Notes under the pieces: model-generated
The model's input: only the letters and a program-made list of their open reading frames with translations
Told to the model about the DNA's origin: nothing
Databases searched by the model: none
Shown here: one piece after another, positions 16,862 through 34,271 of the stretch
How the letters are laid out: each line of letters starts with the position of its first letter
Numbering within the stretch: position 1 is the stretch's first letter
From: Comamonadaceae bacterium
GTDB lineage: Bacteria > Pseudomonadota > Gammaproteobacteria > Burkholderiales > Burkholderiaceae_C
Assembly: GCA_027486755.1 (NCBI GenBank)
Contig: JAIXOM010000059.1
Span: 186,001 to 250,000, forward strand
Length of the DNA stretch: 64,000 nucleotides
Direction: 5' to 3'
Position numbers and translations under genes: made by a program

Positions 16862-18754
16862 TCACGCCCTCAAGCGGTATTCGTCCATCTTTGCGCTCAG
16901 CGTCAGCTTCCAGTAGTCGACCAGACGCCAGGGCTGGTTGGTGACGATACGGCCTTGGGTGTTTTTGTACCAGGTGGTGACGCTGGCGTGGCTCCAGGAG
17001 AGCTGGCTGAGTTTGTTGTCGATGAGGACGTTGTAGGCGTCGTGAACATCGCGGCGCACTTCGGCTTCGCGTGCGCCCTGCGCTTGCAGGCCCTGCAGCA
17101 CGCTCAGGGTGTAGCGCACCTGGCATTCGGCCAGGAAGATGGCGCTGCCGCCGTGGCCCACATTGGTGTTGGGGCCGTAGAGGACGAAGAGATTGGGGAA
17201 GTCGGGCACGGTGATGCCCAGGTAGGCACGCGGGTTGTCATCGCCCCAGACCTGGCGTATTGACACACCGCCACGGCCGCGTATGTCCATAGGCCAGAGC
17301 ATTTTCCCGGCCTGAAAGCCGGTGGCAAAAACAAGGGTGTCGACCTCGACAAGGCGGCCGTCGCTCAGCCGCAGACCCTGGGGCTCGACGCGCTGGATGT
17401 CGGTGGTGACCAGCTCCACATGCTCACGCCGCAGCATGCGGTACCAGCCGGCGTCGCCCAGCACCCGCTTGCCAAACGGCGGATAGCTGGGGATGACTTT
17501 TTCCAGCAGGGCCTCATCGCCTTGCAGCTCGCGCCGCATGTGGCGAACCATGGCCTCACGCAGCTGCGCGTTGTAGGCGCTGATGGACTGGTTGCCGCCG
17601 TCCCAGTCGGGGTCGATTTTCAGGGCTTCAAACAAGCCGTCGCCGAAGGCCCAGAACAATTGGAAGCGGTACCAGGCGGCATAGTAGGGCAGGTACTTGA
17701 GGGCCCATTTTTTGTCCTCGCTGACCGCCTTGTCGATGCCGGGCCTGCGCACCACCCAGGCGCCTGAGCGCTGCATCACATGCAGCGCCTGCACCTCGTC
17801 GACGATGGCCGGGCCCACCTGCACCGCGCTCGCACCGGTGCCAATCAGCGCCACCCGCTTGCCCTTGACCGAACTGCCCTCAGCCCAGGCCCCGGTGTGC
17901 AGCACCTGGCCGGCAAAGTCTTGCAGTCCTGGTAGCGCGGGAATCATCGGACGATTGAGCTGACCGACTGCGCAGATCAGGACATTGGCCTCCAGGGTCT
18001 CGGTCTTGCCCTCGGCCGTGCGTGCGCGCACCTGCCAGATCTTGCGCGCCTCGTCGTAGTAGGCCGCCTCGACCTCGCAGCCCAGGCGCAGATGCGGCAG
18101 CAAGCCGTACTTGCGGGCGCAGTGCTCCAAATAGGCACGGATGCTGGGCTGGCGTGAAAAGTAGTCGGGCCAGTCGTTGTTAGGCTCGAAGCTGAATTGG
18201 TAGAAATGGTTGGGTGTATCGACCGCGCAGCCGGGGTAGCGGTTTTCATACCAGGTGCCGCCCAGTTGAGGGTTCTTTTCAAGCACGGTGTAGGCCATAC
18301 CCGCTTGAGCCAGCCGCACCGCCGCGCAGATGCCGGAGGCGCCCGCGCCAATCACGATCGCGCTCAGGCGCGATGGCTGGCTTGCAGCAGCCGGTGGCGG
18401 GGTGTCCAGGCCCTCCAGGCGCATGTGCTCGAGCAGCATGGGAATGTATTCCTCATGCACCGCTTCGCCAACGGCCACCGTCATCATGCGCTGCATCAGC
18501 TCGGGCGGCGGCACGGGGCAGGCGGGAGCGCCGCCGGCGGCGACGCGCTCAAGTTCAAGCGCCAGTCGGTCGCGGATGGAGGCCGCCAGCTCGGGGGGCA
18601 CTTTTTCCAGATGCTCCCAGGCTCCCCGAACATGGGGCCGCAGGCTTTCGAGCAGCTGCTCGTCGCCGCTGAGCTGCAGCAGCGTCATGGCCAGCGGAAC
18701 GATGGCCGCGCCTTCCAGGCGCTGGCGCAGCGTGTCGCTGGCCTGTGAGCTCAT
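16862..18754 (-). CDS. Baeyer-Villiger-type flavoprotein monooxygenase with HAPMO-like extension (BVMO 2)
   Basis: 630 residues. GAGASG (first Rossmann) is near residue 138, the fingerprint FAGQVLHTGAWA near 281 keeps F-G-H-W but has Ala where Pro or Asp is usual, and GTGASA follows. The N-terminal ~130 residues match the extension of BVMO 1 in pattern (VPLAMTLLQLSGD, PPPELMQRM, PMLLEHMRLEG). The family converts ketones to esters or lactones with O2 and NADPH. It is the last gene of the ten-gene operon reading left from 28130, and its start overlaps the SDR stop by four bases. Being translation-coupled to a dehydrogenase-like gene suggests an alcohol-ketone-ester sequence. Confidence 0.88.
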   Translation of the reverse strand: MSSQASDTLRQRLEGAAIVPLAMTLLQLSGDEQLLESLRPHVRGAWEHLEKVPPELAASIRDRLALELERVAAGGAPACPVPPPELMQRMMTVAVGEAVHEEYIPMLLEHMRLEGLDTPPPAAASQPSRLSAIVIGAGASGICAAVRLAQAGMAYTVLEKNPQLGGTWYENRYPGCAVDTPNHFYQFSFEPNNDWPDYFSRQPSIRAYLEHCARKYGLLPHLRLGCEVEAAYYDEARKIWQVRARTAEGKTETLEANVLICAVGQLNRPMIPALPGLQDFAGQVLHTGAWAEGSSVKGKRVALIGTGASAVQVGPAIVDEVQALHVMQRSGAWVVRRPGIDKAVSEDKKWALKYLPYYAAWYRFQLFWAFGDGLFEALKIDPDWDGGNQSISAYNAQLREAMVRHMRRELQGDEALLEKVIPSYPPFGKRVLGDAGWYRMLRREHVELVTTDIQRVEPQGLRLSDGRLVEVDTLVFATGFQAGKMLWPMDIRGRGGVSIRQVWGDDNPRAYLGITVPDFPNLFVLYGPNTNVGHGGSAIFLAECQVRYTLSVLQGLQAQGAREAEVRRDVHDAYNVLIDNKLSQLSWSHASVTTWYKNTQGRIVTNQPWRLVDYWKLTLSAKMDEYRLRA

Positions 18755-19512
18755 ACCGAATAGCCGCCGTCCACCGCCAATTGCTGGCCGGTCACATAGG
18801 CGGCCGCATCCGAGGCGAGGAATACCGCCACCTTGGCCACCTCCTCGGCGGTGCCGAAGCGGCGCAGCGCGGTGTTGCGCCGCATCGCATCCACAAACTC
18901 AGGCTTGACCTGCTCTTTCAGGCGCAGGAACAGGCCGCCGTCGACGATGCCTGGCGCCACCGAGTTGGCGCGGATCTGGTATCGGCCTTCCTCGCGGGCA
19001 ATGCCGCGCACCAGTGCTTCGATGCCAGCTTTGGGCACGGTCGAGAGGATGTCCATGGGCGGGTGGCGAACAATGCCAGCGCTGGTGATGGCCACGAAGG
19101 AGCCGCCACCGTCTGCGCGCATCAGCGGCAGGCTGGCTTTGACCACATAGAAAAAACCATCGAGATCGCCTGCCATGGTGCGTTGCCATTCATCAGGGTC
19201 GATGTGGGCCACATGCACCATGCTGATGTCGGCGCCCGAAGCAAACACCACCGTATGAATGCGGCCGTATTGCTGGTGCACAGCCTGCAAGGCCGCAGCC
19301 ACCTGCTCGCGCTCGGACAGTTGCAGGGCGAAAGCGTGGGCCTGCACGCCCAGTGCCTGCAGCGAAGCGACCACCTCCTGCGCCGCCTGGGCGTTTTTAC
19401 GGTAGCTCAGGGCCACATGACAGCCCTGGCGAGCCAGTTCGAGGCAGATGGCCTGCCCCAGGCCGCCGCTGCCACCGATGACCACCGCCACGCCCTGGCC
19501 AAATCCGCTCAT
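18751..19512 (-). CDS. SDR-fold protein lacking the catalytic tyrosine
   Basis: 253 residues. The cofactor motif GGSGGLG is at residue 13, FASGADIS stands in the NNAG position, and the C-terminal YVTGQQLAVDGG is typical of SDRs. The catalytic Ser is in ITSAGI, and the Lys is in VPKAG, but the position 13 residues after the Ser and 4 before the Lys is Ser (STVPK) instead of Tyr. No Tyr is close enough to fit Y-x6-K. It may be a non-canonical reductase, a binding partner, or an enzyme with a different proton donor. It overlaps both neighbours by four bases, between the flavoprotein and BVMO 2 genes. Confidence 0.85.
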   Translation of the reverse strand: MSGFGQGVAVVIGGSGGLGQAICLELARQGCHVALSYRKNAQAAQEVVASLQALGVQAHAFALQLSEREQVAAALQAVHQQYGRIHTVVFASGADISMVHVAHIDPDEWQRTMAGDLDGFFYVVKASLPLMRADGGGSFVAITSAGIVRHPPMDILSTVPKAGIEALVRGIAREEGRYQIRANSVAPGIVDGGLFLRLKEQVKPEFVDAMRRNTALRRFGTAEEVAKVAVFLASDAAAYVTGQQLAVDGGYSV

Positions 19513-20987
19513 GGCTGCGCGCTGCGCGCTTGCAGTGCAGCGTCCTCTCCCGCGATTTTTCCGAACACCGCGCCGCGCAGCACCGAGGTGGCGCCGGTAT
19601 AGACCTGGTAGTACAAGCCAGTGGCCTCACCGGCGGCGTACAGGCCTGGGACGGTGCGACCGTCGCTGTCGACCACCTGGGCGCGGCTGTTGGTCTTGAT
19701 GCCGCCGTAGGTAAAGCACACGCCTGCGATGATGGGGTAGGCCAGGAAGGGGCCCTGGGCGATGGGCCGGGCCCAGTTGGACTTGCGTGGCTCCAGCCCT
19801 TGGGTAGCCAGTCCGTCCACTTTGAGCGGCGAGAACTCGCCCTTGCTGCAGGCCGCGTTGTATTGGTCCACCGTTTGCTGCAGGCCCTGCGCATCGACTT
19901 CGATCAGCTCGGCCAACTCGGCGATGCTGCTGGCCTGCACCGGCGGCTGGTCGGTGCGTATGCTGCGTTTCCAGTTGGGCACATCGTCGATGCTTTGGTC
20001 AAACACCACCCAGCAAATGCCGTCGGGCTGGTCTTTGATGGCGCGCGAAATGTGGTCGTAGTTGACGTCTACCGGACCAGGCGCCTCGTCCACAAAACGC
20101 TTGCCCTGGCGGTTGACCAGAATCCCGTAAGGGAAGTTCATCACCAGCGCTTCGGGCAGCGGCGAGCGCGGGTCCAGTGGCTCGGCATGAAAGGAGCTGA
20201 AGTCACCCGCTGGAGCCGCGCCCAGGGCCAGAGCCAGCCGTATGCCCTCGCCCTTGTTGTAGTAGCCGCCGCGCGCCACCGGCCGGATGTAGCGGGCGGT
20301 CGGGCCGATGTAGTGCGTCATCATTTCGGGGTTGCCCTCGAAGCCGCCCGAGGCAATCACCACCGAGCGGGCCGCCATCTGATGGCCCTGGCCATCCTGG
20401 CTGACCACACCGACCTGCAAAAAGCCTTGCGCGTCCCGCCGGGTCAGCTGGTGGGCGGTGGTCTCAAAATAAAGGGCCACGCCCAGCTTGCGCGCCTGCT
20501 CCTGCAGCGCCTCGATCAGCGCCAGCCCGCCGCCTACGGGCATGAGCCGCGGCGCGGCCGCCGTCACAAAGTAGGTCGGCAGGGCGGCAAAGCGCACGCC
20601 CCATTTCTTGAGCCATTGCACCGTCGGGCCGGCCTGTGTCGACAGCGTCGACACCAGCTCGGGGTCGGGCATGCCATGGGCCTTCACATAGCCCGGCCAC
20701 TGCGCATAGTCCCGCGACACCGCCTCGATCACGTTGGGGTCGATGTGGTGGCCGGCATTGGCCACCAGCAGCTCCTCGAAGTCGTCGCTGACTTCATCCT
20801 CGTTCTTCATGCGAAAGTAAGACTCGGTCCAGCGGGTGTTGCCGCCGAACTCTTCGGGCGCTGAGCGCTCGAGCACCGCCACCTTGGCGCCGGCGGCAGC
20901 GGCAGCCACCGCCGCAGACAAGCCGGCGATGCCGCTGCCGATCACCAGCAGGTCGAAGCTGCTGTCAAAAGACGGGTTCTCATACAT
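19509..20987 (-). CDS. FAD-dependent dehydrogenase of the fumarate reductase / tricarballylate dehydrogenase family
   Basis: 492 residues, FAD_binding_2 fold. GSGIAGLSAAVAAAAAGA binds the ADP part of FAD near residue 17, GGNTRWTESYFRM follows, and the C-terminal GLYAAGEATGLYY is the second flavin contact. The family includes fumarate reductase flavoproteins, 3-ketosteroid 1-dehydrogenases and tricarballylate dehydrogenase; all move hydrogens at a C-C bond next to a carbonyl or carboxylate. I set the start at 20987 (MYENPSFDSSFD); the open frame to 21143 overlaps the aldehyde dehydrogenase and is not needed. It is inside the ten-gene operon, 25 bases after the aldehyde dehydrogenase. Confidence 0.86.
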   Translation of the reverse strand: MYENPSFDSSFDLLVIGSGIAGLSAAVAAAAAGAKVAVLERSAPEEFGGNTRWTESYFRMKNEDEVSDDFEELLVANAGHHIDPNVIEAVSRDYAQWPGYVKAHGMPDPELVSTLSTQAGPTVQWLKKWGVRFAALPTYFVTAAAPRLMPVGGGLALIEALQEQARKLGVALYFETTAHQLTRRDAQGFLQVGVVSQDGQGHQMAARSVVIASGGFEGNPEMMTHYIGPTARYIRPVARGGYYNKGEGIRLALALGAAPAGDFSSFHAEPLDPRSPLPEALVMNFPYGILVNRQGKRFVDEAPGPVDVNYDHISRAIKDQPDGICWVVFDQSIDDVPNWKRSIRTDQPPVQASSIAELAELIEVDAQGLQQTVDQYNAACSKGEFSPLKVDGLATQGLEPRKSNWARPIAQGPFLAYPIIAGVCFTYGGIKTNSRAQVVDSDGRTVPGLYAAGEATGLYYQVYTGATSVLRGAVFGKIAGEDAALQARSAQP

Positions 20988-21012
20988 GGTTGACTGCCTC
21001 TGCCAAAGCGGC

Positions 21013-22491
21013 TCAGTATTTGCGAATAAAGGGGTCGGGCATTTCCAGCTCGGTGGAGATCCACACGCTCTTGACCTCCAGAAACTCCTTGACCGCCTCA
21101 ACCCCACCTTCGCGGCCCAGCCCGCTGTCTTTGTAGCCGCCAAAAGGCGTGGTGAAACTGGTAGAGCGGTAGTTGTTGATCCAGACGGTGCCGGCGCGCA
21201 GCTTGGCGCTCATGTGCATGGCGCGGTGCAGGCTGCGGGTCCAGACGCCGGCGGCCAGCCCGAAGCGTATGTCGTTGCCGATGCGCACCGCGTCGGCCTC
21301 GTCCTTGAACTTGAGCACCGACAGCACCGGTCCAAAAACCTCCTCCTGAGCAATGCGCATGTGGTTGCTCACCCCGGTGAAGATGGTGGGCTCAACAAAC
21401 TGGCCCGCGCCATAGCCCGGGCCAGTGCGTGCATTGCCGCCCAGGGTCACCACCGCGCCTTCGGCCTTGGCGATGTCGATGTAGCTCATCACCTTGTCAA
21501 ACTGCGGCTTGGTCGCCACCGGCCCCACCTGTATGCCGGGCTCGGCTGGGTTGCCAATTTTTGCGTCCTTGCAGATGGCGAGCAGCCGCTCGATGAATTC
21601 GTCGTGGATGCTCTCTTGCAGCAGCAGGCGCGAGCCGGCCATGCAGGTTTGTCCACCGGCCGAAAAAATTCCGGTGACCACGCCATTGGCGGCGTTGGCC
21701 AGATCGGCGTCGTCGAACACGATGTTGGGTGACTTGCCCCCGAGCTCAAGCGTGCAGCGCTTGAGGTGCTGAGCAGCCTGCACAGCCACCCGGCGCCCGC
21801 CTTCGTCGCCGCCGGTAAAAGCCACCGCCGCCACATCGGGGTGGGCGATCAGCGGCTCGCCCACTTCTTTGCCAAAGCCGGTGATCACGTTAAACACGCC
21901 GGGCGGAAAGCCGGCCTCGACAAACAGACGGCCGAGCTCGAACATCGATACCGAGGTGTGCTCCGAGGGCTTGGCGACGATGGTGTTGCCAGCGGCCAGC
22001 GCCGGGGCGACCTTCCAGGCGGTCAAGAGCAGCGAGGAGTTCCAGGGCGTGATAGTGGCCACCACACCGACTGGCTCGTAGCGGGTGTAGTTGAAGACCT
22101 TGGGCTTGTCGATGGGGATGACCGCGCCTTGAATTTTGTCGGCCAGGCCGCCGAAGTAGTAGAAGTATTTGGCGGTATACCTGACCTGGCCGAGCACCTC
22201 GCTGAGCAGCTTGCCGTTGTCCCGGCTTTCGATCTTGGCCAGTTGCTCCGCGTTTTTATCGATCAGGGCGCCGAGCTTGTAGAGCAGGGCGCCACGGTCG
22301 GTGGCCGACATCTGGCCCCAGGGCCCTTGCAAGGCAGCGGCAGCCGCCTTGGCCGCCTTGTCGACGTCTTTGGCATTGCCTTGCGGTACCTGGGCCCAAG
22401 CCTCGCCGGAATAAGGGTCGAGCGCGTCAAAGTATTGGCCGGAGTCGGGGGCGAGCCATTCGTTGTTGATCAGCAGTTGGCAGGTTTGCAT
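21013..22491 (-). CDS. NAD(P)-dependent aldehyde dehydrogenase
   Basis: 492 residues, full-length ALDH fold. The catalytic Glu is in LELGGKSPNIVF (near 257), the catalytic Cys in GGQTCMAGSRL (near 293), and the EEVFGPVLSVL and FGGYKDSGLGREGG motifs are intact. It oxidises an aldehyde to the acid, probably the product of earlier alcohol oxidation or ester cleavage in the BVMO pathway. It lies between the acyl-CoA dehydrogenase and the flavoprotein in the ten-gene operon. The ALDH remnant at 40431-41012 belongs to a different ALDH type. Confidence 0.93.
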   Translation of the reverse strand: MQTCQLLINNEWLAPDSGQYFDALDPYSGEAWAQVPQGNAKDVDKAAKAAAAALQGPWGQMSATDRGALLYKLGALIDKNAEQLAKIESRDNGKLLSEVLGQVRYTAKYFYYFGGLADKIQGAVIPIDKPKVFNYTRYEPVGVVATITPWNSSLLLTAWKVAPALAAGNTIVAKPSEHTSVSMFELGRLFVEAGFPPGVFNVITGFGKEVGEPLIAHPDVAAVAFTGGDEGGRRVAVQAAQHLKRCTLELGGKSPNIVFDDADLANAANGVVTGIFSAGGQTCMAGSRLLLQESIHDEFIERLLAICKDAKIGNPAEPGIQVGPVATKPQFDKVMSYIDIAKAEGAVVTLGGNARTGPGYGAGQFVEPTIFTGVSNHMRIAQEEVFGPVLSVLKFKDEADAVRIGNDIRFGLAAGVWTRSLHRAMHMSAKLRAGTVWINNYRSTSFTTPFGGYKDSGLGREGGVEAVKEFLEVKSVWISTELEMPDPFIRKY

Positions 22492-22544
22492 GGCAGGGTT
22501 CAGGGGGATTTGATACAGGCCTGGGTGAGTCAGGACTAGGCCAT

Positions 22545-23750
22545 TTAGGCCGAGGTTTCAATCGGCTTGCTGGTCAGCTCGGGGGTCTTGACCTTGCCCA
22601 GCAGGGCGTCGGAGATGATGCGCAACTGGATTTCCGAGGTGCCCTCGAAGATCTTGGTCAGGCGCGCGTCGCGCCAGTAGCGCTCGACCGCGAAATGTGT
22701 GGTGTAACCCGCGCCGCCGAGTATTTGTATTGCTTCGCTGGTGACTTCCTCGGCCATTTCAGCGGCCAGGTACTTGACCATGGCGGCCTCGGTGTCGCAG
22801 CGCTGGCCTTCGTCGATCTTGGTGCAGACCGAATACATCAGCTGGCGGCAGGACTCGATCTGCGCCGCCATGTGGGCGAGCTTGAAACGTATGGCCTGAA
22901 AGTTGGCGATGGGCTGGCCAAACTGCGCCCGGTCTTGGGCATAGGCCATGGCGTCCTCCAGGGCGCCGCGTGCCAGCCCGATGGAGCGGGCTGCGGTTTG
23001 TGCGCGCGAGCTTTCCAGGCCGGAGGTGACCAGGTAGAAGGCCTTGCCTTCTTCGCCCAGCATGTTTTCGGCCGGCACGCGTACGTTGTCCAGAGCCAGC
23101 TCGCAGGTGTTCCAGCCGAAGTAGCCGATCTTGGGGATGGGATGGCCTTGGATGCCGGCCGGCCAGGCGCCTCGCGGCTTTTCCACAATGAAGGCGCTCA
23201 GTCCCAGGTGGCGGCGCTTGGGATCGATGTTGGGGTCGGTGCGGGCGATGACCACCAGAAAGTCAGCGCCATCGCCGAAGGTGCACCAGTACTTGTTGCC
23301 GGTGATCAGCCAGTCATTGCCCTCGCGCCGCGCCCGCGTGGCCAGGCCCGAGATGTCCGAGCCCGTGCCTGGCTCGGACATGGCCAGCGCGCCCAGAAAC
23401 TGTCCGCTGGCCATGCGCTTGAAGTATTTTTCTTTCTGCGCTGGCGAGAAGGCCGAGCCCGGAATGATGCTGTGCGCCATCGAATGGCGGATGATGCTCG
23501 AGACGCTCATCCAGGCGCGGGCCAGTTCTTCGGAGATCAGGCAGTACTCGAAGCAGCCCATGTCCAGACCGCCGTATTCGGTCGGCATCTTGATGCCGAA
23601 GTAGCCCAACTCGGCCATCTTGTCGCGCAAGCTCATCGGGATCGCGCCTTTTTCCGGATCGAGCTTGTTGGCAATGGGCAGCACTTCCTGCATGGCGAAC
23701 TTGCGCGTCGCCTCCTGCAGCATCAGTCGCTCTTCGGTGAGATAGGTCAT
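22545..23750 (-). CDS. Acyl-CoA dehydrogenase
   Basis: 401 residues. It shows the family substrate and flavin regions ALAMSEPGTGSDISGLATRA and YWCTFGDGADF, and the C-terminal RYWRDARLTKIFEGTSEIQ that carries the usual catalytic Glu region. It makes a 2,3-double bond in an acyl-CoA and passes electrons to ETF. The start overlaps the stop of the MmgE/PrpD gene by four bases. In this operon its product would go to the MaoC hydratases, giving a short beta-oxidation-like or methylsuccinyl-type sequence; the chain length cannot be told. Confidence 0.92.
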   Translation of the reverse strand: MTYLTEERLMLQEATRKFAMQEVLPIANKLDPEKGAIPMSLRDKMAELGYFGIKMPTEYGGLDMGCFEYCLISEELARAWMSVSSIIRHSMAHSIIPGSAFSPAQKEKYFKRMASGQFLGALAMSEPGTGSDISGLATRARREGNDWLITGNKYWCTFGDGADFLVVIARTDPNIDPKRRHLGLSAFIVEKPRGAWPAGIQGHPIPKIGYFGWNTCELALDNVRVPAENMLGEEGKAFYLVTSGLESSRAQTAARSIGLARGALEDAMAYAQDRAQFGQPIANFQAIRFKLAHMAAQIESCRQLMYSVCTKIDEGQRCDTEAAMVKYLAAEMAEEVTSEAIQILGGAGYTTHFAVERYWRDARLTKIFEGTSEIQLRIISDALLGKVKTPELTSKPIETSA

Positions 23751-25159
23751 CGGCTTGTTTTTTCAGGGGTTTGAAGTCCGGCACTGGCCGGGGATGCATC
23801 GGGTCGGCACAGGCGCAGCAGGGCTTGCAGATCGGCCGCTTGCTCGAACTTTTCAAGGACGCCGAGCAGGGCCTGAGTTTTGTCTGCGCCTGCTGCCGGC
23901 GTGACCAGGGCCTTGAACTTGGCGCGCAGCTTGAGCGTTTGTGCCTGCTTATCGGGGCTGGGGGTGCCACAGTCGAAGTGGCGCTCGAGCATGCGGCCGT
24001 CTTTGAGTTTCATACTCACCCGCGACTCGCTCAAGCTCATGCCGGGCACCAGCGTCACTTCTACCCGCTGGCGCAGCGCCTCCACCTCGGGCTCTGTGAC
24101 CCGGTCCCAGGTGTGCAGGTCAGCGGTGTCTATGCCCAGCATCGCGAAGGCGGCGGTCGCGCGCAGGCTGAACTTGGCCTCCAGGCCGGTGCGCGGTTGC
24201 TGGATATTGCAGATGCTGCAGCCCTCGCCGGCCACCACCGCGATGGATTCAACCGCATCCGCTGTCAATTGCTGCGCCTGGCGCAGCTCGCCCACCGCCT
24301 CGATGGTCGAGTGGGTGCTGTAGCAGGCGGCGTGAAACTTGAACAGGTTGTGCGTCAGATGCCAGTGGCCAGCCGGCGCGCTCAAGGCCGCATCGACATT
24401 GAAGTCGCTGCCGTGCAGCCGCGCAAAGCCTTTGTCGCATTCGATGGCATCGCCCCGACTGCTCATACCCCGCTGGGCGTAAAGCGCGGCGCGCAGCCCG
24501 GCCTGTGCGGCCAAGCCGGCATGCAGCGGTTTGGTCATGCTGCCAAACATGGCTTTGAGGCCGGCCGATTGGGTGGCGGCAATACCCACAGCGTGGCTGG
24601 CCTGCTCGGCCGGCAGTTCAAGCAGGCGGGCGCAGGCGATGGCCGCGCCTATGCCGCCTATGGTGGCCGTAGCATGGAATCCATTGGCGTAGTGGGCCGG
24701 CTCGACCAGTGTGCCGATGCGACAGGCCGCCTCATAGCCGGCCGCAAAGGCTGCAATCACCTGCTCGCCGCTGGCGCCTCGGTGCTCGGCCAGCGCGATG
24801 ACCGCTGGCAAGATGGCTGCCGACATATGCCCGGGCACCGCCAGATTGACATCGTCGTAATCGAGCGCGTGCGACAAGGCGCCGTTGTAGAGCGCGGCCT
24901 GTAGCACCGTGCCGCGCTCGGCCTGGCCGATCAGCGTGGCTTGCGGCCTGCCGCCTTCCTCCTGCATGCTCGCAGCCAGGATGGTGGCCAGCGGCTCGCT
25001 CAAACCGGCAAAGCTGCAGGCCAGCCAGTCGGTGACGCAGGCCCGGGCCACTTCGAGGGCGTCAGCGCTCAGCGCGTCCAGACGCAAAGCCAGCGCCTGC
25101 TCGACCAAATAGGCGGTCAGGCCTTCGCCACCGCTGCGCCTCACCGAGGCTGCGTCCAC
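23747..25159 (-). CDS. MmgE/PrpD-family protein
   Basis: About 470 residues. The family includes 2-methylcitrate dehydratase and cis-aconitate decarboxylase. Visible family stretches are LSHALDYDDVN near residue 80 with the conserved Asp pair, a GFHATATIGGIGAA motif and FKFHAACYSTHSTIEA with a Cys-His pair. There is no ATG near the front: I prefer GTG at 25159, preceded by AAGGTG, over TTG at 25177, which lies inside the Bug gene end. It follows the Bug gene by seven bases and overlaps the acyl-CoA dehydrogenase. With the CoA-transferase, hydratase and lyase genes nearby it suggests handling of a branched di- or tricarboxylate. That is inference. Confidence 0.85.
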   Translation of the reverse strand: MDAASVRRSGGEGLTAYLVEQALALRLDALSADALEVARACVTDWLACSFAGLSEPLATILAASMQEEGGRPQATLIGQAERGTVLQAALYNGALSHALDYDDVNLAVPGHMSAAILPAVIALAEHRGASGEQVIAAFAAGYEAACRIGTLVEPAHYANGFHATATIGGIGAAIACARLLELPAEQASHAVGIAATQSAGLKAMFGSMTKPLHAGLAAQAGLRAALYAQRGMSSRGDAIECDKGFARLHGSDFNVDAALSAPAGHWHLTHNLFKFHAACYSTHSTIEAVGELRQAQQLTADAVESIAVVAGEGCSICNIQQPRTGLEAKFSLRATAAFAMLGIDTADLHTWDRVTEPEVEALRQRVEVTLVPGMSLSESRVSMKLKDGRMLERHFDCGTPSPDKQAQTLKLRAKFKALVTPAAGADKTQALLGVLEKFEQAADLQALLRLCRPDASPASAGLQTPEKTSR

Positions 25160-25166
25160 AGTCACC

Positions 25167-26150
25167 TTATTCGGCAAAACTCAGGCCAGAGGCGCGAATA
25201 CGTTCGCCCAAGCGACGCGTGTCGTCCACCAAGATCTTGCCCAGCGCGGCTGGGGCGATGTAGTTGGCCACATTGCCTTGCAGGTAGAGCTTCTTGGCGT
25301 ACTCGGCTTCTTGAGCCATGGCCTGCAACTCGGTGCTGAGCTTTTGGACCACATCGCTAGGCAGGCCTTTGGGCCCGAACAGCGCATACCAGATCGGAAA
25401 GACCAGGTCGGGGTAGCCCTGCTCGGCCAGGGTAGGCACATCGGGCAGGAAGGGCAGGCGCTTGCTGGAGGTCACAGCGATAGGTATCAACTGCCCGCTC
25501 TTGATGGGCTCGTCGAGCGCGCCCGAATAGCCCGGGGCTGAGAGTGTGACGCGCCCGGCGATGGTGTCCATCAGGGCCGGGGCTGCGCCTTTGTAGGGTA
25601 CATGCAGCACCTTGATGCCGGCCTGGTGCGCGAACAGTGCAGGCGGCAGGTGGGTGGTGCCACCGACACCGGCCGAGCCATAGCTGACCGCGTCCGGACT
25701 TTTCTTGGCCAGGGCCACCAGATCGCTGACGCTGCGCAAGCCGCTGGCCTTGCTGACCACCATCACATGCGCCGAATCGGCCACGCCGCCAATCGGGGTG
25801 AAGTCGGTCACGTTAAAGGGCAGGGGGTTGTTGGGCGGCCGCACATTGGGGTAAATGGCCATGGAGTTCACCCCCATGTAGAGGGTGTAGCCGTCGGGCT
25901 TGGCGCGAAAGGCTTGCTCGGTGCCCACCACCCCGCCTGCGCCCAGGATGTTTTTGACCACCACCGCCTGGCCGAGCCGCTCGGTCAGGCGTTGGGCCAT
26001 CACCCGTGCAACCGTATCGGTGGGGCCGCCCGCACTGACCGGGACGATGATCTCGATGGTTCTGTTCGGATAGCTTTGGGCCGCAGCCCAGGCAGGGATG
26101 GAAAGTGCAAGCGCAGCGAAGATCCTGCGGCTCAGGGCGTTCTTGGTCAT
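25167..26150 (-). CDS. Bug/TctC-family binding protein
   Basis: 327 residues. The leader MTKNALSRRIFAALALSIPAWA ends in AAAQS and directs export. PVSAGGPTDTVARVMAQRL, VVVKNILGAGGVVG and KPDGYTLYMG match the Bug family, although the usual ENR before GAGG is replaced by KNI. It is fourth in the ten-gene operon, between the lyase and MmgE/PrpD genes, so its ligand is probably the growth substrate or an excreted intermediate of this pathway. No permease is encoded with it. Confidence 0.9.
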   Translation of the reverse strand: MTKNALSRRIFAALALSIPAWAAAQSYPNRTIEIIVPVSAGGPTDTVARVMAQRLTERLGQAVVVKNILGAGGVVGTEQAFRAKPDGYTLYMGVNSMAIYPNVRPPNNPLPFNVTDFTPIGGVADSAHVMVVSKASGLRSVSDLVALAKKSPDAVSYGSAGVGGTTHLPPALFAHQAGIKVLHVPYKGAAPALMDTIAGRVTLSAPGYSGALDEPIKSGQLIPIAVTSSKRLPFLPDVPTLAEQGYPDLVFPIWYALFGPKGLPSDVVQKLSTELQAMAQEAEYAKKLYLQGNVANYIAPAALGKILVDDTRRLGERIRASGLSFAE

Positions 26151-26171
26151 GGTGGGTCTCCTTCTGTGTTG

Positions 26172-27086
26172 TTACATACCGATCAGGTCGGCGCGGTGCA
26201 AGATGCCGCTTTGGGCGCGCACTGTGGCCACGTCCACCAGCGAGCCGTCGAGCGCGATGGAGCCCAGGCCCTGCTCCAGCGCCTTGGCATAGGCGGCGGC
26301 CATGGCGCGCGCTTTGTCCACGTCAGCTTGCAGGGGGGTGTGCGCCTTGTTGGCTGGCTCGATCTGGCTGGGGTGTATGGCCCACTTGCCGACAAAGCCC
26401 ATGATGGCGCCACGGCGCGCTTCAATTTCGTAGCCGGCGGCGTTGCGAAAGTCGGCGAAGGGGCCGTCGATCGCGTCTATGCCGGCGGCCCGCGCGGCGA
26501 TCACCACTTTGTAGCGTGGGTAGTGCCAGAGGTCGCCCGGGTAGTCCTTGGAGCCCCAGATCTCTTTCTGGTCCATGCCCTGCGAGGCCGAGTAGTCGCC
26601 CATGCCCAAAATCAGGGCCTCCAGGCGCGGGCTGCAGCGGGCGATTTGCTCAACATTGATCAGGCCTTCGACCTCCTCGATCAAGACCTCCAGGCCGATC
26701 CGCTTTTTCAGCTTGAGCTTTAGCTCGAGCTGGTTGAGCAAGGTCTCGACGAAGTGCAGGTCACGCGGGTGGCGGACCTTGGGGATCATGATGACATCGA
26801 GGTTTTCGCGGGCACCTTCGACGACTTCGATGATGTCGTTGTAGCAGTATTCGGTCTCCACATCGTTGATGCGCACGCAGCGGGTTTTCTTGCCCCAGTC
26901 CAGCGTGTTCAGAGCGGTGACCACCTTGCCGCGCGCTTCGGCCTTGGCGCTGGGTGCGACCGCGTCTTCGAGGTCCAGAAAGACAAAGTCGGCCGCGCTG
27001 GCGGCGCCTTTGGCCATCATTTTTTCGCTGCTGCCGGGAACGGCGAGTTCGGAGCGGCGCAGCCGCTTGCTGGGAGGCAGGTGCAT
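26172..27086 (-). CDS. HpcH/HpaI (CitE-like) lyase, malyl-CoA / citramalyl-CoA lyase type
   Basis: 304 residues, TIM-barrel CitE family. RRSELAVPGSSEKMM is the usual N-terminal phosphate loop, DFVFLDLEDAVAP carries acidic metal ligands, RINDVET and IMIPKVRHP follow, and LEVLIEEVEGLINVEQIA holds the second acid. Length and the GMGDYSASQG segment fit L-malyl-CoA/beta-methylmalyl-CoA lyases. Such enzymes split a 3-hydroxy-acyl-CoA dicarboxylate into acetyl- or propionyl-CoA and a 2-oxo acid. It follows two MaoC genes and precedes a Bug gene (21-base gap), which fits hydration followed by cleavage. Confidence 0.87.
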   Translation of the reverse strand: MHLPPSKRLRRSELAVPGSSEKMMAKGAASAADFVFLDLEDAVAPSAKAEARGKVVTALNTLDWGKKTRCVRINDVETEYCYNDIIEVVEGARENLDVIMIPKVRHPRDLHFVETLLNQLELKLKLKKRIGLEVLIEEVEGLINVEQIARCSPRLEALILGMGDYSASQGMDQKEIWGSKDYPGDLWHYPRYKVVIAARAAGIDAIDGPFADFRNAAGYEIEARRGAIMGFVGKWAIHPSQIEPANKAHTPLQADVDKARAMAAAYAKALEQGLGSIALDGSLVDVATVRAQSGILHRADLIGM

Positions 27087-27126
27087 GGGAGCTTTCTCTG
27101 GTGAGGATGGAAAAATTAAAAAGGGC

Positions 27127-27606
27127 TCAGGCCTGCAGGCCGGCAGGGCGGCGCCGGATCAGCACGGTGCGCTGACCTTCAAAGACCTGCTCGTCTTTTT
27201 GGTTGAAGCCCAGATGACGGAAGACCACGACGCCAGCGTCAGGGCGGTCTGCATTGCGCTTGTCGAGCACCTCGGTGTAGGCATAGAGCGTGTCGCCGTG
27301 AAACACCATGGCTTTGAGACGTATGCCGGTGACACTCAATTCGGCCAGCGCGTTTTCAGCGGTGTCTTGGGCGGCCAGGCCTATGACCATCGAGGTGGTC
27401 AGGCCGCCAAAGTAGACCCGCTGACCGAAGGCGCCCTTGTTCATGGCGTGTTCGTTGAAGTGGCCTTGGGCGGTGTTCATCACCAGATGGGCGAACATCG
27501 TGTTGTCGATTTCGCCGATGGTCTTGCCGCGCGCATGGCGCAGCACTTGGCCGACTTGAAAGTCTTCAAAATAGTTGCTGGTGCCGGTCAGGGTGAGCGA
27601 GGTCAT
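27127..27606 (-). CDS. MaoC-family hydratase (hotdog fold), second of a pair
   Basis: 159 residues. NYFEDFQVGQVLRHARGKTI is the typical MaoC opening; NTAQGHFNEHAM and VYFGGLTTSMVIGL follow the order of mesaconyl-CoA/2-methylfumaryl-CoA hydratase-like proteins. The start at 27606 is chosen for its AAGGA; an earlier ATG at 27627 overlaps the previous gene. It adds water to an enoyl-CoA, often a branched unsaturated dicarboxyl-CoA in this branch. It probably pairs with the MaoC protein just upstream, since members of this group occur as double-hotdog or two-subunit enzymes. Confidence 0.85.
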   Translation of the reverse strand: MTSLTLTGTSNYFEDFQVGQVLRHARGKTIGEIDNTMFAHLVMNTAQGHFNEHAMNKGAFGQRVYFGGLTTSMVIGLAAQDTAENALAELSVTGIRLKAMVFHGDTLYAYTEVLDKRNADRPDAGVVVFRHLGFNQKDEQVFEGQRTVLIRRRPAGLQA

Positions 27607-27623
27607 GGCAGTCCTTGATGGGT

Positions 27624-28130
27624 TCACGCGGCGTTCTTGCGCAGCACGAGGTTGGTGCGGCGAAAGTGGATCACCCGCTGGCCTTTGCGCAGACCCTCGG
27701 TATGCCAGGTCACGATGCCCTGGTCCTTGCGGCTCGACGAGTTGCGCCGGTCGACCACGGTGCTGCGCGCCACCAGGGTGTCACCGGGATACACCGGCTG
27801 TTCAAACACCATGTCGTCGACGCCCAGGAAGGCGCCGCCGAGCTCGCTCAGGTCTTCGGTGCTCAGCCCAAAGACCAGGTTGAACACCAGGTAGGGGTTG
27901 ACTGGGCAGCGTTCGTAGCCCAGCGACTGGGCATGCTCCTGATTGAAATAGATCGGGTTGAAGTGCAGCGTCATCGTCGAGAAGAAGCTGTTGTCCGATT
28001 CGGTCAGGGTGCGGCCCCAGTGGTGCTCGAAAACCCGGCCGGGCTCGAAGTCTTCGAAGTAGCAGCCCTTGGGCAACAGGACCGCAGCCTGACGGATTTC
28101 GTCGGCGCTGCGCAGGGGAGTAGGTGGCAT
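27624..28130 (-). CDS. MaoC-family hydratase (hotdog fold), first gene of the ten-gene operon
   Basis: 168 residues. KGCYFEDFEPGRVFEHHWGRTLTESDN is a MaoC opening, with DN and HFNPIYFN giving the usual Asp/His catalytic region, followed by the VYPGDTLVARSTVVDRR strand. The start at 28130 (MPPTPLRS) is favoured because the promoter, operator and a GAGAG lie just upstream; a longer frame to 28187 would run into the operator. It shares its general pattern with the next gene but is not a recent copy. It is the first gene behind operator A, so its message begins about 41 bases upstream. Confidence 0.87.
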   Translation of the reverse strand: MPPTPLRSADEIRQAAVLLPKGCYFEDFEPGRVFEHHWGRTLTESDNSFFSTMTLHFNPIYFNQEHAQSLGYERCPVNPYLVFNLVFGLSTEDLSELGGAFLGVDDMVFEQPVYPGDTLVARSTVVDRRNSSSRKDQGIVTWHTEGLRKGQRVIHFRRTNLVLRKNAA

Positions 28131-28151
28131 GGGTATTCGCTCTCTGGCCGT

Positions 28152-28175
28152 AAACGTCCGGACGTCTGAATGACT
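28152..28175 (-). promoter_or_regulatory. GntR operator A (TCCGGA palindrome)
   Basis: The centre ACGTCCGGACGT (28154-28165) is a perfect 12-base palindrome with AAA on its left and CTGAATGA on its right. It covers the expected transcription start of the MaoC-led operon, just downstream of the -10 box. The same core occurs as operator B at 28261 and twice in operator C at 30847. Position at +1 fits repression by the neighbouring GntR protein. Confidence 0.72.
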
Positions 28176-28177
28176 TA

Positions 28178-28206
28178 ATCCTTTCATGGGCCAGCCGATT
28201 TGTCAA
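28178..28206 (-). promoter_or_regulatory. Promoter of the ten-gene catabolic operon
   Basis: On the minus strand a perfect TTGACA (-35, 28201-28206) is 17 bases from AAGGAT (-10, 28178-28183). Transcription would start near 28171, inside operator A, leaving about 40 bases before the first MaoC start. Confidence 0.65.
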
Positions 28207-28248
28207 CCGTGAGAAGTCACTCAGAGGGAAAACCCTCGTGACACGGTT
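28205..28248. repeat. Nested 44-base inverted repeat between operators A and B
   Basis: Reading inward, AACCGT/ACGGTT, GTCAC/GTGAC and GAGGG/CCCTC pair around an AAAA loop. The right arm is continuous; the left arm has inserts of five (GAGAA) and three (TCA) bases. It lies between divergent promoters, so it is not at a gene end. Its right arm holds the GTGACA that I read as the -35 box for the rightward promoter, and its left end touches the leftward TTGACA. Confidence 0.6.
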
Positions 28249-28266
28249 TGAGCTTAGTCCAAACAT
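28238..28266 (+). promoter_or_regulatory. Rightward promoter toward the remnant and GntR gene
   Basis: GTGACA (28238-28243) and AAACAT (28261-28266) are 17 bases apart, and the -10 box overlaps operator B. This is weaker than the leftward promoter. It could drive the regulator gene at 28682 through the remnant, giving autoregulation. Confidence 0.45.
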
Positions 28267-28284
28267 CCGGACATTCAGACAACC
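28261..28284 (+). promoter_or_regulatory. GntR operator B
   Basis: AAACATCCGGACATTCAGAC repeats the plan of operator A; the 12-base core ACATCCGGACAT (28263-28274) is a palindrome at its central eight to ten bases. It lies 24 bases before the ATG of the chimeric remnant and about 400 bases before the GntR gene. Confidence 0.65.
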
Positions 28285-28307
28285 GTATGTCATGGTTTGA
28301 AGCCCCG

Positions 28308-28664
28308 ATGAAGATTGCGATCCTGGATGACATCTATGGGGTGGTGCGCACATTGCCCAGCGCCAGCCGCTCGCCGACCCTGCCCGATGTGCCTACCTTT
28401 GAGGAAGCGGGCGTGACCGGCTTTGCTGCCAACCCCTGGGCCGGCATCTTCGCGCCAGCGCGCACGCCGCAGGCGGTGGTCGAGCGCTTCAACAGCGAAC
28501 TCAATGCCCTGCTCGCTTCCCCTGAGGTACGCGATAAGCTGGCCGGCATGGGCATCACCGCCACCCTGATCCGGCTCGATCAGTTTGCTGCTGAAATCCG
28601 GCGTGAGCTCGATGCCTGCGGTCCCATGCTCAAGCAGGCTAACATCCGGGCCGATTCGTCTTGA
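28308..28664 (+). pseudogene. Chimeric remnant: dehydrogenase-like N-terminus joined to the C-terminus of a Bug protein
   Basis: The frame encodes 118 residues. The first ~17 (MKIAILDDIYGVVRTLP) resemble the start of D-2-hydroxyacid dehydrogenases of the SerA type. From about residue 20 onward, SPTLPDVPTFEEAG, PWAGIFAPARTPQAVVERFN and the closing helices are the last third of a Bug/TctC protein. No signal peptide or ligand-binding N-terminal lobe is left. An internal deletion that joined two genes in frame explains this best. It sits right behind operator B and 17 bases before the GntR gene, so it may still be transcribed. A short expressed protein cannot be ruled out. Confidence 0.75.
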
Positions 28665-28681
28665 ACCAGGATTGAGGCACC

Positions 28682-29488
28682 GTGCCAGTCACCCTTGAGA
28701 AAACCAGAAAGAAAGCGCCTACGAAGGCCGCTGCAGCACCGGCGCGCTCCCACCTGTCGCAGAGCACCACCCGTTATGAAATGTTTGCCAACTCCCTGGT
28801 GGCTGACATTGAGTCGGGCCGCTATCCGGTGGGCGCGCTGCTGCCGCCTGAGCCAGAGTTGTGCGCGCATTACGGCCTGAGCCGCCATACGGTGCGCGAA
28901 GGGGTGCGCAAGCTGGTGGACATGGGGCTGGTTTCGCGCCAGCAGGGGGTAGGTACCAAGGTGATTTCGGCCCAGGTCGGCCCCAACAACTTTTCCGCCG
29001 CCACCTCGCTGGAGGCCCTGTTCAGCTATGTAGGCGGCACCTATCTGGAAATCTATGAAGAAGGCTGGGTCAGTGCCGACGACCAGCTCGCCCGCCTGCT
29101 CGACTGCAAGGTGGGTCAGCGCTGGCTGAAGGTCAGCAGCTATCGCTACAAGCAAAACGACCAGCAGCCGCTGTCGCACACCGTGCTCTACATACCGCCG
29201 GCCTATGAGGGGATCCGGCAGTACCTTGGCGAGGTCAATCACCCGGTCTACCAGCTGATTGAAAAGCATTACGGTCACAAGGTGCAAGACCTGCAGATGG
29301 ATGTCAGCGCCCTGTCGATTCCCACTGCGATGGCGCGCAAGCTGCAATGCCGCCCGAATTCACCCGGCTTGCTGGTGGTGCGCCGCTACCGGGGCGCCAA
29401 TGACTCGGGACTGTCCAACTCGGTCAGCATCTACCCGCAGTCGCGCTTTCAGGTCTCGATCCGTTACCGGCTCAACTGGGCGGCCTGA
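28682..29488 (+). CDS. GntR-family regulator with UTRA effector domain (HutC type)
   Basis: 268 residues with a GTG start behind GAGG. A basic Ala-rich tail of 25 residues comes first. The winged helix-turn-helix then reads MFANSLVADIESGRYPVGALLPPE, with the recognition part YGLSRHTVREGVRKL near residues 65-80. Residues ~105-265 form the UTRA ligand-binding domain (WLKVSSYRYK, then SHTVLYIPPAY, and the final VSIRYRLNW). It stands between the ten-gene operon and a CoA-transferase gene, both of which carry the same palindrome at their promoters, so it is the probable repressor of both. The effector is likely a CoA ester or acid of the pathway. Confidence 0.92.
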   Translation: MPVTLEKTRKKAPTKAAAAPARSHLSQSTTRYEMFANSLVADIESGRYPVGALLPPEPELCAHYGLSRHTVREGVRKLVDMGLVSRQQGVGTKVISAQVGPNNFSAATSLEALFSYVGGTYLEIYEEGWVSADDQLARLLDCKVGQRWLKVSSYRYKQNDQQPLSHTVLYIPPAYEGIRQYLGEVNHPVYQLIEKHYGHKVQDLQMDVSALSIPTAMARKLQCRPNSPGLLVVRRYRGANDSGLSNSVSIYPQSRFQVSIRYRLNWAA

Positions 29489-29563
29489 GATCGGCTGCCT
29501 GAGGTCGATTGCATAAAGCCAGCGTGGGCAGGCCCGTTGTGCCGGCTTCATTGCTCAAGCGCC

Positions 29564-30844
29564 TTAAGCTGCGCAGCGCACCGCGCCGCTGGCCGTCAGT
29601 TGATCGATCTGCGCCGCCGTCATGCCCGCGGCCAGCAGCACCTCGCGGGTGTGCTCACCGAGCATAGGAGCCCGGGTACGGACGCTTCCCGGTGTTTCAG
29701 ACATCTTGATCGGAACGCCTGCGATGGTGAGTTTTTTGCTGCTGTGCGGTTGCTCGACTTCGACCAGCATCTCGCGCGCGGCGAAGTAGGGGTCGGTGAA
29801 GATGTCCTGCGCGTCGTAGATCGGCCCGAAGGGCAATTGCCCGCCGAGCAGTTGCCGCAGCTGCTCCTTGGTGTGGGCGCTGGTAAAGGCGCCCAGCTCG
29901 GCCTTGAGCGCGGGGGCGTTGCGCACCCGGTCGTCGTTGCTGCGAAAACGGGGGTCTTCGGCCAACTCGGGCCGCCCCATGAGCTTGCACAGCTTGATCC
30001 AAAAGCCGTCGTTGGGGCTGCCGACCGTGACCCAACCGTCAGCCGCCGGGAATACCCCCATGGGGACGAACATCGGGTGGTGTGAACCCTGGGGCCTGGG
30101 GATCACACCGCTGATGGAGTATTGGTAGATCACGCGCTCGCAAAAGGCCAGCACGCCGTCGACCATGGCCACGTCAATGAATTGCCCACGCCCGGTGCGC
30201 TGCGCACGCATGACGGCAGCGAGCACGCCGAAGGCGCACAAGGTGGCCGGGATCAGATCGCCCACGCCGGGGCCCACCTTCATCGGCACGCCGTCCTCGG
30301 CGCCGGTCACGCCCATCATGCCGCCCATGGACTGAGACACCACGTCAAAGGCTGGCCAGTCGGTGTAGTCGTTGCTGGCGCTGCGCGGGTCGCCGAAGCC
30401 GCGGATGCAGGCGTACACCAAGCGGGGGTTGCGCTCGGCCAGCTTTTCATACGACAGCCCGAGCCTGTCGAGCACACCGGCCCGAAAGTTCTCGATCAGC
30501 ACATCGGCCTTGTCGACCAGCGACAGCAGCACCTCCCGCCCTTGTTCGGACTTCAGATCGATGACCACGCCCTTTTTGTTGCGGTTGACGCTCTGGTAGT
30601 AGCCGCCCATATTGCGCACCTGATCGTCATCGCAGTAGGGGCCGAAGGCGCGGGTCATGTCGCCCTCGGGCGACTCGACCTTGATCACCTCGGCGCCATG
30701 GTCGGCCATGAGTTGTGCGCAAAATGGACCGGCGAGCATCTGCGTGAGGTCGAGCACCCGCAGGCCCTCGAGGGCGCCGGCCAGGCCAGCACTGGCAGAT
30801 GAAGGTGCGGTGTCTGCCGAGGGCGGAACAGCGGTTCGATTCAT
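29564..30844 (-). CDS. CaiB/BaiF (class III) CoA-transferase under operator C
   Basis: 426 residues, family III CoA-transferase. ALEGLRVLDLTQMLAGPFCAQLMADHGAEVIKVE is the classic opening, the catalytic Asp is in VGPGVGDLIPAT (near 188), and RGQFIDVAMVDGVLAF follows. It moves CoA from a donor acyl-CoA to a carboxylic acid, forming an acyl-CoA for the dehydrogenase, hydratase and lyase of the nearby operon. Its start codon is four bases from a double TCCGGA operator and lacks a Shine-Dalgarno. The N-terminal ~25 residues (Ser/Ala/Pro-rich) before the fold are unusual, so a later start is possible. It is transcribed alone. Confidence 0.9.
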   Translation of the reverse strand: MNRTAVPPSADTAPSSASAGLAGALEGLRVLDLTQMLAGPFCAQLMADHGAEVIKVESPEGDMTRAFGPYCDDDQVRNMGGYYQSVNRNKKGVVIDLKSEQGREVLLSLVDKADVLIENFRAGVLDRLGLSYEKLAERNPRLVYACIRGFGDPRSASNDYTDWPAFDVVSQSMGGMMGVTGAEDGVPMKVGPGVGDLIPATLCAFGVLAAVMRAQRTGRGQFIDVAMVDGVLAFCERVIYQYSISGVIPRPQGSHHPMFVPMGVFPAADGWVTVGSPNDGFWIKLCKLMGRPELAEDPRFRSNDDRVRNAPALKAELGAFTSAHTKEQLRQLLGGQLPFGPIYDAQDIFTDPYFAAREMLVEVEQPHSSKKLTIAGVPIKMSETPGSVRTRAPMLGEHTREVLLAAGMTAAQIDQLTASGAVRCAA

Positions 30845-30846
30845 TT

Positions 30847-30876
30847 AAACATCCGGATGTCTGTACGTCTGGACAT
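30847..30876 (-). promoter_or_regulatory. GntR operator C (double site) in the CoA-transferase leader
   Basis: ACATCCGGATGT (30849-30860) is a perfect 12-base palindrome; ACGTCTGGACAT (30865-30876) is a second, imperfect copy 16 bases away. Together they fill the space between the -10 box and the start codon of the CoA-transferase gene. Confidence 0.72.
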
Positions 30877-30903
30877 CTTCACATGCGGGCCTGAGCTTGT
30901 CAA
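30875..30903 (-). promoter_or_regulatory. Promoter of the CoA-transferase gene
   Basis: On the minus strand TTGACA (30898-30903) is exactly 17 bases from GAAGAT (30875-30880). The -10 box overlaps the second half of operator C by two bases. Spacing, -35 sequence and operator position copy those of the ten-gene operon promoter. The message would have a leader of only about 25 bases. Confidence 0.65.
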
Positions 30904-33461: not shown

Positions 33462-34271
33462 TTAGGGTGCGGGTGGCCAGGGTCCGAGCCAGCCCAGGCT
33501 GTTGGAAATTTCTTCAGCGGTGTTGCGCACTAGGCGGGCTATGGCGCCGAGCTGCGGTGCCATGCGCACGGTGGGCCCGCCGGCACTGACCGCCGCCATC
33601 ACCCGTCCGTGGGCGTTGAAGATGGGCGCTGCCACCGACATCACCTGTGCGACGGTGCCGCTGTCGGTGGTGCTGACCTGCTCGCGCCTGACCTTGGCCA
33701 GCGCGCTCAGCAGGCTGCGTCGTGAGCCTACTGTCTTGGATGTGATTTTTTCGAATTGCACCCGACTGAGGATGGCCTCCAGATCGGGCTTGGGTAAATA
33801 GGCCAGCATCGCATGTCCGGTGCCAGTGGCGTAGGCGGGCTTGAGCGAGTCGCTCTGCACGCTAAATCGCAGCCAGTTGCCCGACTCCACCACCGACAGG
33901 TAGCGGCAATGCAGGCCGTCATCGGTGAGCACGGCCAGAAAGCTGGTTTCGCCGGTGCGGCGGCTAAGATTTTGCAGCTGCTCATGTGCGCATTGCGGAA
34001 AACTGCTGCGCGCGCTTTCGGCCATCTGGGCGCCCAGCGCGATAGAGGGTGCGCCGAGCTTGTACAGCCCCTGATCGAGTACCAGGTGGCCGCCGGCCTG
34101 CAGGGTCTTGAGCATGACGAACAAGCTGGTCTTGGGCACCCTGAGTGTCTGGCACAGCTGGGTCAGAGTGCAGCCCTGCGGGTGCTGGGCCAGATGTCCC
34201 AGCACCTGCAGCACCCGGACAATGGCGCGCGGGCCGCTGTTGGAGCCGTCCAGGCCTTGCAGCTCAAACAT
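33462..34271 (-). CDS. IclR-family transcriptional regulator
   Basis: 269 residues. The winged helix-turn-helix spans about residues 15-75 (AIVRVLQVLGHLAQHPQGCTLTQL, then VPKTSLFVMLKTL). The effector domain follows, with YATGTGHAMLAYLP and VAAPIFNAHGRVMAAVSAGGP. It lies inside the acyl-CoA synthetase operon, 17 bases behind the Bug gene, so it would be made with the enzymes it probably controls. A candidate target is the region upstream of the synthetase gene, which has two TTCTGAATT repeats 21 bases apart. Confidence 0.9.
   Translation of the reverse strand: MFELQGLDGSNSGPRAIVRVLQVLGHLAQHPQGCTLTQLCQTLRVPKTSLFVMLKTLQAGGHLVLDQGLYKLGAPSIALGAQMAESARSSFPQCAHEQLQNLSRRTGETSFLAVLTDDGLHCRYLSVVESGNWLRFSVQSDSLKPAYATGTGHAMLAYLPKPDLEAILSRVQFEKITSKTVGSRRSLLSALAKVRREQVSTTDSGTVAQVMSVAAPIFNAHGRVMAAVSAGGPTVRMAPQLGAIARLVRNTAEEISNSLGWLGPWPPAP

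Follow-up and report, generated by a model that had tools for sequence, protein, structure and literature searches.

Candidate operator arrays of 8-bp period around a GntR/UTRA regulator gene in a Comamonadaceae contig

The gntR locus and its repeat arrays

The sequence analysed here, a window of 64,000 nucleotides from contig JAIXOM010000059.1 of a Comamonadaceae bacterium, contains a regulator gene, gntR (28682..29488, plus strand), with three short repeat arrays around it. The 268-residue product has the two domains of the HutC subfamily, an N-terminal GntR winged helix-turn-helix (wHTH) domain (Pfam PF00392, 1.2e-16) and a C-terminal UTRA effector domain (PF07702, 9.9e-13), both above cut-off, and is an ordinary UTRA-type GntR protein. 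It falls below the curated cut-off of each of the 21 NCBIfam families listed for it, which include the equivalogs HutC, PhnF, PhnR and TreR.

On one side of gntR, ten minus-strand genes (16862..28130) appear from their strand and spacing to form one transcript, running from 28130 to 16862. By open reading frames (ORFs) and Pfam they encode two MaoC/mesaconyl-CoA-hydratase halves, a CitE-like lyase, TctC, MmgE/PrpD, an acyl-CoA dehydrogenase, an aldehyde dehydrogenase, an FAD oxidoreductase, an SDR and an FMO-like protein. On the other side, and convergent with gntR, lies a family III CoA-transferase gene (29564..30844, minus strand; Pfam CoA_transf_3, 3e-133), whose product scores below the cut-off of the NCBIfam mesaconate CoA-transferase model. 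Every NCBIfam model shown for the ten scanned proteins, a set that ends before the last three operon genes, is likewise below its cut-off. Because a CoA-transferase, a hydratase and a lyase occur together, the genes suggest a pathway in which a dicarboxylic acid would be activated, hydrated and split, as in the mesaconate or itaconate routes.

Each of the three sites around gntR is a row of RTCYGGAY-like units repeated every 8 bp. Array 1 (28156..28179, minus strand) lies over the operon promoter and comprises three units, written on the plus strand as GTCCGGAC, GTCTGAAT and GACTTAAT. Array 2 (28257..28288, plus strand), with the four units GTCCAAAC, ATCCGGAC, ATTCAGAC and AACCGTAT, stands ahead of a transcription unit that ends in gntR, and array 3 (30851..30882, minus strand), with ATCCGGAT, GTCTGTAC, GTCTGGAC and ATCTTCAC (again written on the plus strand), lies over the promoter of the CoA-transferase gene. 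When both strands of the window are scored for three consecutive RTCYGGAY units (maximum 24), arrays 3 and 2 give the two best scores, 23/24 and 22/24; array 1 reaches 20/24 by hand count, and the near-identical contig L038 scores 20 at the corresponding place. In the units GTCCGGAC, GTCTGTAC and GTCTGGAC GT and AC are 4 nt apart, which is the operator spacing of HutC-type regulators, and A replaces G in some half-sites. The close, fixed register of the repeats at a promoter is that of NanR-type repeat operators. Another period-8 self-similar stretch, scoring up to 15/20, occurs at the end of the second MaoC gene (27123-27150) and is probably due to chance in coding sequence.

The initial annotation of this DNA had described a TCCGGA palindrome confined to the surroundings of the GntR/UTRA gene, and the four palindrome sequences that it quoted are indeed where it placed them; it had overlooked the 8-bp arrays to which they belong, as well as the dehydrogenase-tctC-gntR unit that array 2 fronts and the deletion that this unit has suffered here. 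The exact site ACRTCCGGAYRT gives five strand-matches at three places in the window, all at this locus, compared with 0.02 expected from 100 dinucleotide shuffles. Genome-wide it occurs at four places in 4.0 Mb, three of them here, with the fourth (C56:30389) inside ORFs of at least 100 aa. Looser searches were rejected as a regulon signal for lack of any excess, bare TCCGGA being found 10 times in the window against 12.9 expected, and so the signal resides only in the exact, extended site. A wider genomic regulon was rejected as well: RTCYGGAYRTCYGNAYR with one mismatch gives 6+6 matches against 2+7 in a reversed control, and the window's own arrays account for 5 of the 12. All eight outside places inspected (7 of 18 from the genome-wide scan, and C18) lie within ORFs of at least 100 aa, which is weak evidence in a GC-rich genome. 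We claim no targets beyond the local regulon.

Conservation of the operator among homologues

Comparison with 62 homologous loci (223 kb; tblastn E < 1e-25), from which the two contigs of the near-identical genome were excluded and in which the window is not counted, points to a common operator. The pattern TGTNxxNACA has a CG centre (TGTNCGNACA) in 40 instances, GC in one, and TA or AT in none; shuffled sequence is expected to give 3.0 CG-centred sites, with a maximum of 7 in 100 shuffles, and 17 more distant GntR loci give no CG, one AT and one GC centre. On these counts the predicted operator of the homologue group is GT-NCGN-AC. The TA-type centre of the pattern NyGTMTAKACNy, a common consensus but no strict requirement, is thus absent here (0 TA against 40 CG). 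The CG-centred sites lie no more than 350 bp upstream of the estimated regulator start in 27 of the 40 cases, and in three loci where gntR follows a CoA-transferase gene such a site lies far upstream, at 7.3 kb in L040 and 5.4 kb in L044 and L045. A homologue of the window's CoA-transferase is found within 1.6 kb in 35 of the 62 homologous loci and in none of the 17 distant ones. At L041 9472, L042 9278 and L100 2322 a CG-centred GT-N4-AC core is seen close upstream of the regulator with a CoA-transferase homologue within 1.6 kb; by eye, this gene looks divergent in L041 and L042.

The same recurrence bears on whether the arrays might be the sites of a different regulator encoded close by, for example the LysR (15334-16227) or IclR (33462-34271) protein. 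Both are encoded in the window, and IclR-like ORFs can be picked out by eye near the orthologous array of locus L007; CG-centred GT-N4-AC sites, however, accompany GntR homologues across many genera, and operators of HutC-type regulators have this GT-N4-AC layout (PMC4494728). We regard an origin with another regulator as very improbable.

The window site ACRTCCGGAYRT is best described as the family operator TGTNCGNACA packed every 8 bp. Since 10-bp sites then overlap by 2 bp, the last two letters of ACA in one unit coincide with the first two of TGT in the next: C meets T, which accounts for Y, and A meets G, which accounts for R; the wobble of the window sites would follow from the overlap itself.

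Packing of this kind is also seen elsewhere in the group. Pairs of 8-mer RTNYRNAY cores were counted against 2000 mononucleotide shuffles of the flanks, after eight of nine loci that share one genus and one operator had been dropped (L074-L077, L079, L081, L083 and L084; L043 kept) and two sites beyond the upstream limit (L040, L007) added by hand. With the window and L007 set aside, 30 primary sites remain. Five pairs of a primary site and a second core are spaced exactly 8 bp apart, compared with 0.27 expected (maximum 3), and 12 of 26 pairs have a spacing that is a multiple of 8 and no more than 40 bp, compared with 1.31 expected (maximum 6). The 26 pairs at least 8 bp apart themselves exceed the 8.8 expected, and the 14 at non-multiples of 8 exceed about 7.5, so that there is some general clustering too. 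We conclude that the 8-bp lattice characterises part of the group.

Among orthologues, the array is kept at the matching promoter position in L007, a Ramlibacter metagenome-assembled genome whose regulator is 71% identical. The L007 array precedes the MaoC gene and reads GTACGGAC/GTCTGGAT/GTCTGGAT/GTCTGGAT, with three perfect units in a row, and its promoter follows the plan of the window, TTGACA-17-AATCAT, then the array, then GTTTA. The CoA-transferase gene of L007 lies within the MaoC operon, whereas in the window it is separate and has its own array. All three arrays are also kept in contig L006 (regulator 99% identical), which says little because this contig is so close to the window.

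Contig L006 does, however, reveal what array 2 serves. There array 2 precedes three genes, one resembling a 2-hydroxyacid dehydrogenase (named by eye), a full-length tctC and gntR; 1659 bp of this unit are missing from the window, between points with 15 bases in common, and this loss has left an in-frame fusion ORF (28308..28664, plus strand; from ORF, Pfam and L006 comparison) in which the start of the dehydrogenase-like gene is joined to the 3' end of tctC. Array 2 would thus be the operator of the unit ending in gntR, in keeping with autoregulation.

Recognition residues and related systems

The NagR structural study (PMC4333415) describes one recognition-helix Arg that reads G at -4 and a second that reads G at -5. 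In a by-eye alignment the first is kept in the window regulator as R68, and the second, Arg38 of NagR, corresponds with Pro58, in line with the lost G at -5. We do not attribute Y at -5 to Pro58: of three other members with Pro that were checked, L061 fits, and L107 and L085 show no such site. The residue after R68, H69, is common to the window regulator and AraR. This His (HTH position 39) was rejected as a full explanation of the CG centre; it is present in 33 of the 62 homologues, yet CG sites occur among the 12 loci with Tyr, and two loci with Ser (L044, L045) have their CG-centred sites 5.4 kb upstream. At most it explains the CG centre in part.

The HutC repressors NagR/YvoA and DasR likewise combine a GntR wHTH with a UTRA domain and GT-N4-AC operator spacing, and the solved sequences closest to the window regulator include DasR and YvoA. 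The window regulator differs from these repressors in the CG centre of its sites instead of TA, in Pro58 for Arg38 of NagR and in the 8-bp arrays. AraR of Bacillus subtilis is the closest parallel for the centre, its operator ORA1, AATTGTTCGTACAAAT, being a CG-centred GT-N4-AC site (PMC4218819). Here too a CG-centred operator goes with a recognition-helix His, as in AraR, with the reservation that homologues with Tyr or Ser in its place have CG sites as well. The AraR C-terminal domain differs from UTRA, and Pfam finds UTRA in the window regulator instead of the AraR effector-domain type. AraR is filed in its own GntR/AraR subfamily, and its operators are separate sites bound cooperatively, not an 8-bp array.

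Direct repeats also have precedents. NanR of Escherichia coli is not known as a UTRA protein. Its operator nevertheless consists of close direct repeats, (GGTATA)3, which three dimers bind cooperatively with the help of a required 32-residue N-terminal extension (PMC8012715); these repeats differ in sequence from the window units and, unlike them, are not palindromic. About 31 residues precede the GntR domain in the window regulator. Two HutC-subfamily members, FarR and NagQ, read direct repeats (TGTATTAWTT and TGGTATT), again not palindromic units. Suvorova et al. 2015 (PMC4494728) report additional, weaker boxes, placed 7-12 nt from the centre of the site, in 23 groups, of which 4 belong to the HutC subfamily; those half-sites are single weaker boxes, whereas here as many as four or more units stand in strict 8-bp register. 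The initial annotation's suggestion that the operator type may be new is not supported, since the HutC GT-N4-AC spacing is kept and the CG centre is known for AraR. What is unusual is that a palindromic unit is repeated in a strict 8-bp array, and no account of a CG-centred 8-bp operator for a UTRA regulator was found in the open-licence PMC literature, among the matches listed.

A probable local repressor

Pattern scanning finds promoter-like sites, both on the minus strand, at the ten-gene operon (TTGACA-17-AAGGAT, 28178..28206) and at the CoA-transferase gene (TTGACA-17-GAAGAT, 30875..30903). They are the only two matches in the window to TTGACA-N17-NANGAT (0.04 expected), which bears out the promoter plan of the initial annotation. 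If transcription starts 7 nt past the -10 boxes, at about 28171 and 30868, array 1 extends from about -8 to +16 and array 3 from about -14 to +18, both covering the -10 box and the likely start in the classical position for a repressor. The palindrome placed at +1 by the initial annotation was a loose description; arrays 1 and 3 do cover the -10/+1 region, and the palindromes are the best units within longer arrays of 8-bp period.

We consider it probable that the GntR/UTRA protein acts as a substrate-responsive repressor, with a local regulon made up of the ten-gene operon for the acid-CoA pathway, the split-off CoA-transferase gene and the unit ending in gntR itself. Its operator would be the 10-bp TGTNCGNACA repeated every 8 bp, neighbours sharing two bases (C/T, then A/G). 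Without inducer, dimers on one or several units over -10/+1 would block RNA polymerase; they would come off once the UTRA domain had bound an acid or the CoA thioester of that acid. The local regulon already proposed in the initial annotation is upheld by the arrays over both leftward promoters and ahead of the gntR unit, and by the L007 array, whereas repression itself we infer because the arrays overlap -10/+1; binding, the inducer and occupancy by several dimers are likewise deductions from sequence.

Several observations weigh against this interpretation. The -10 boxes agree with TATAAT at only 3/6 positions, for which reason none of the three claimed promoters is listed by a stricter consensus scan; the rightward promoter described as weaker and facing the regulator is indeed the weakest of the three, and is absent from that scan with the others. 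Poor -10 boxes are also found at some activated promoters, and GntR-type activators exist (CitO, named in PMC8012715), so that the regulator could activate its targets, or both activate and repress them. Arrays 1 and 3, however, lie over -10/+1 beside perfect TTGACA boxes, the usual place for a repressor, and not over -35 or upstream; activation is in our judgement unlikely. Also unfavourable are the perfect palindrome at 30849, which lacks G at -4 in both halves, the 23 window matches to ACRTCCGGAYRT with two mismatches (20.3 expected), and the ordinary level of period-8 self-similarity in the window (16, 16, 12 and 12 positions for periods 8, 7, 9 and 10, and 80 for period 6). In the homologues, TGTNCGNACA is absent from the 350 bp upstream in 37 of 62 loci, and by our own count the 27 proximal sites fall at 25 loci, 9 of them from one genus with identical operator. 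Five loci (L061, L067, L068, L069 and L104) contribute the 12 lattice pairs, and of these loci L067 and L068 look like relatives, and most of the 30 primary sites are without an 8-bp-lattice partner.

The scarcity of partners also favours another mode of binding, in which a single dimer occupies one palindromic unit per promoter and the flanking units serve as alternative registers that raise local concentration and are never co-occupied, the regulon being the same. Judging from the NagR contacts at -7 to -4, a symmetric pair of dimers could hardly both contact the two bases common to neighbouring units. Against this stand the at least four in-register units of array 3 and of L007, needless for one dimer, and the assembly of NanR dimers on a repeat operator (PMC8012715). 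In a crystal, moreover, NagR DNA-binding domains are bound next to one another along a pseudo-continuous helix (PMC4333415). We would grant single-dimer binding slightly less than an even chance.

We suggest, more tentatively still, that UTRA regulators linked to CoA-transferases form a broad group in the Burkholderiales which reads the CG-centred operator, and that part of this group assembles several dimers on the 8-bp lattice, a NanR-like mode that would have evolved separately in the UTRA branch. The precedents are the CG centre in AraR and the direct repeats in NanR, FarR and NagQ. If TGTNCGNACA is a specific operator for GntR/UTRA regulators that often lie beside CoA-transferase genes (35/62 loci), the regulons of such regulators become predictable, and the locus would offer a clean case of overlapping operators 8 bp apart, whose reader could be a single dimer or several dimers in a row.

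Two minor observations may be added. Plasmid relatives amount to 34 records, all below 60% identity. Array 3 reaches nearly to the annotated ATG of the CoA-transferase gene (30844), with no evident ribosome-binding site between them (30840-30850), and the true start of this gene may be further in.

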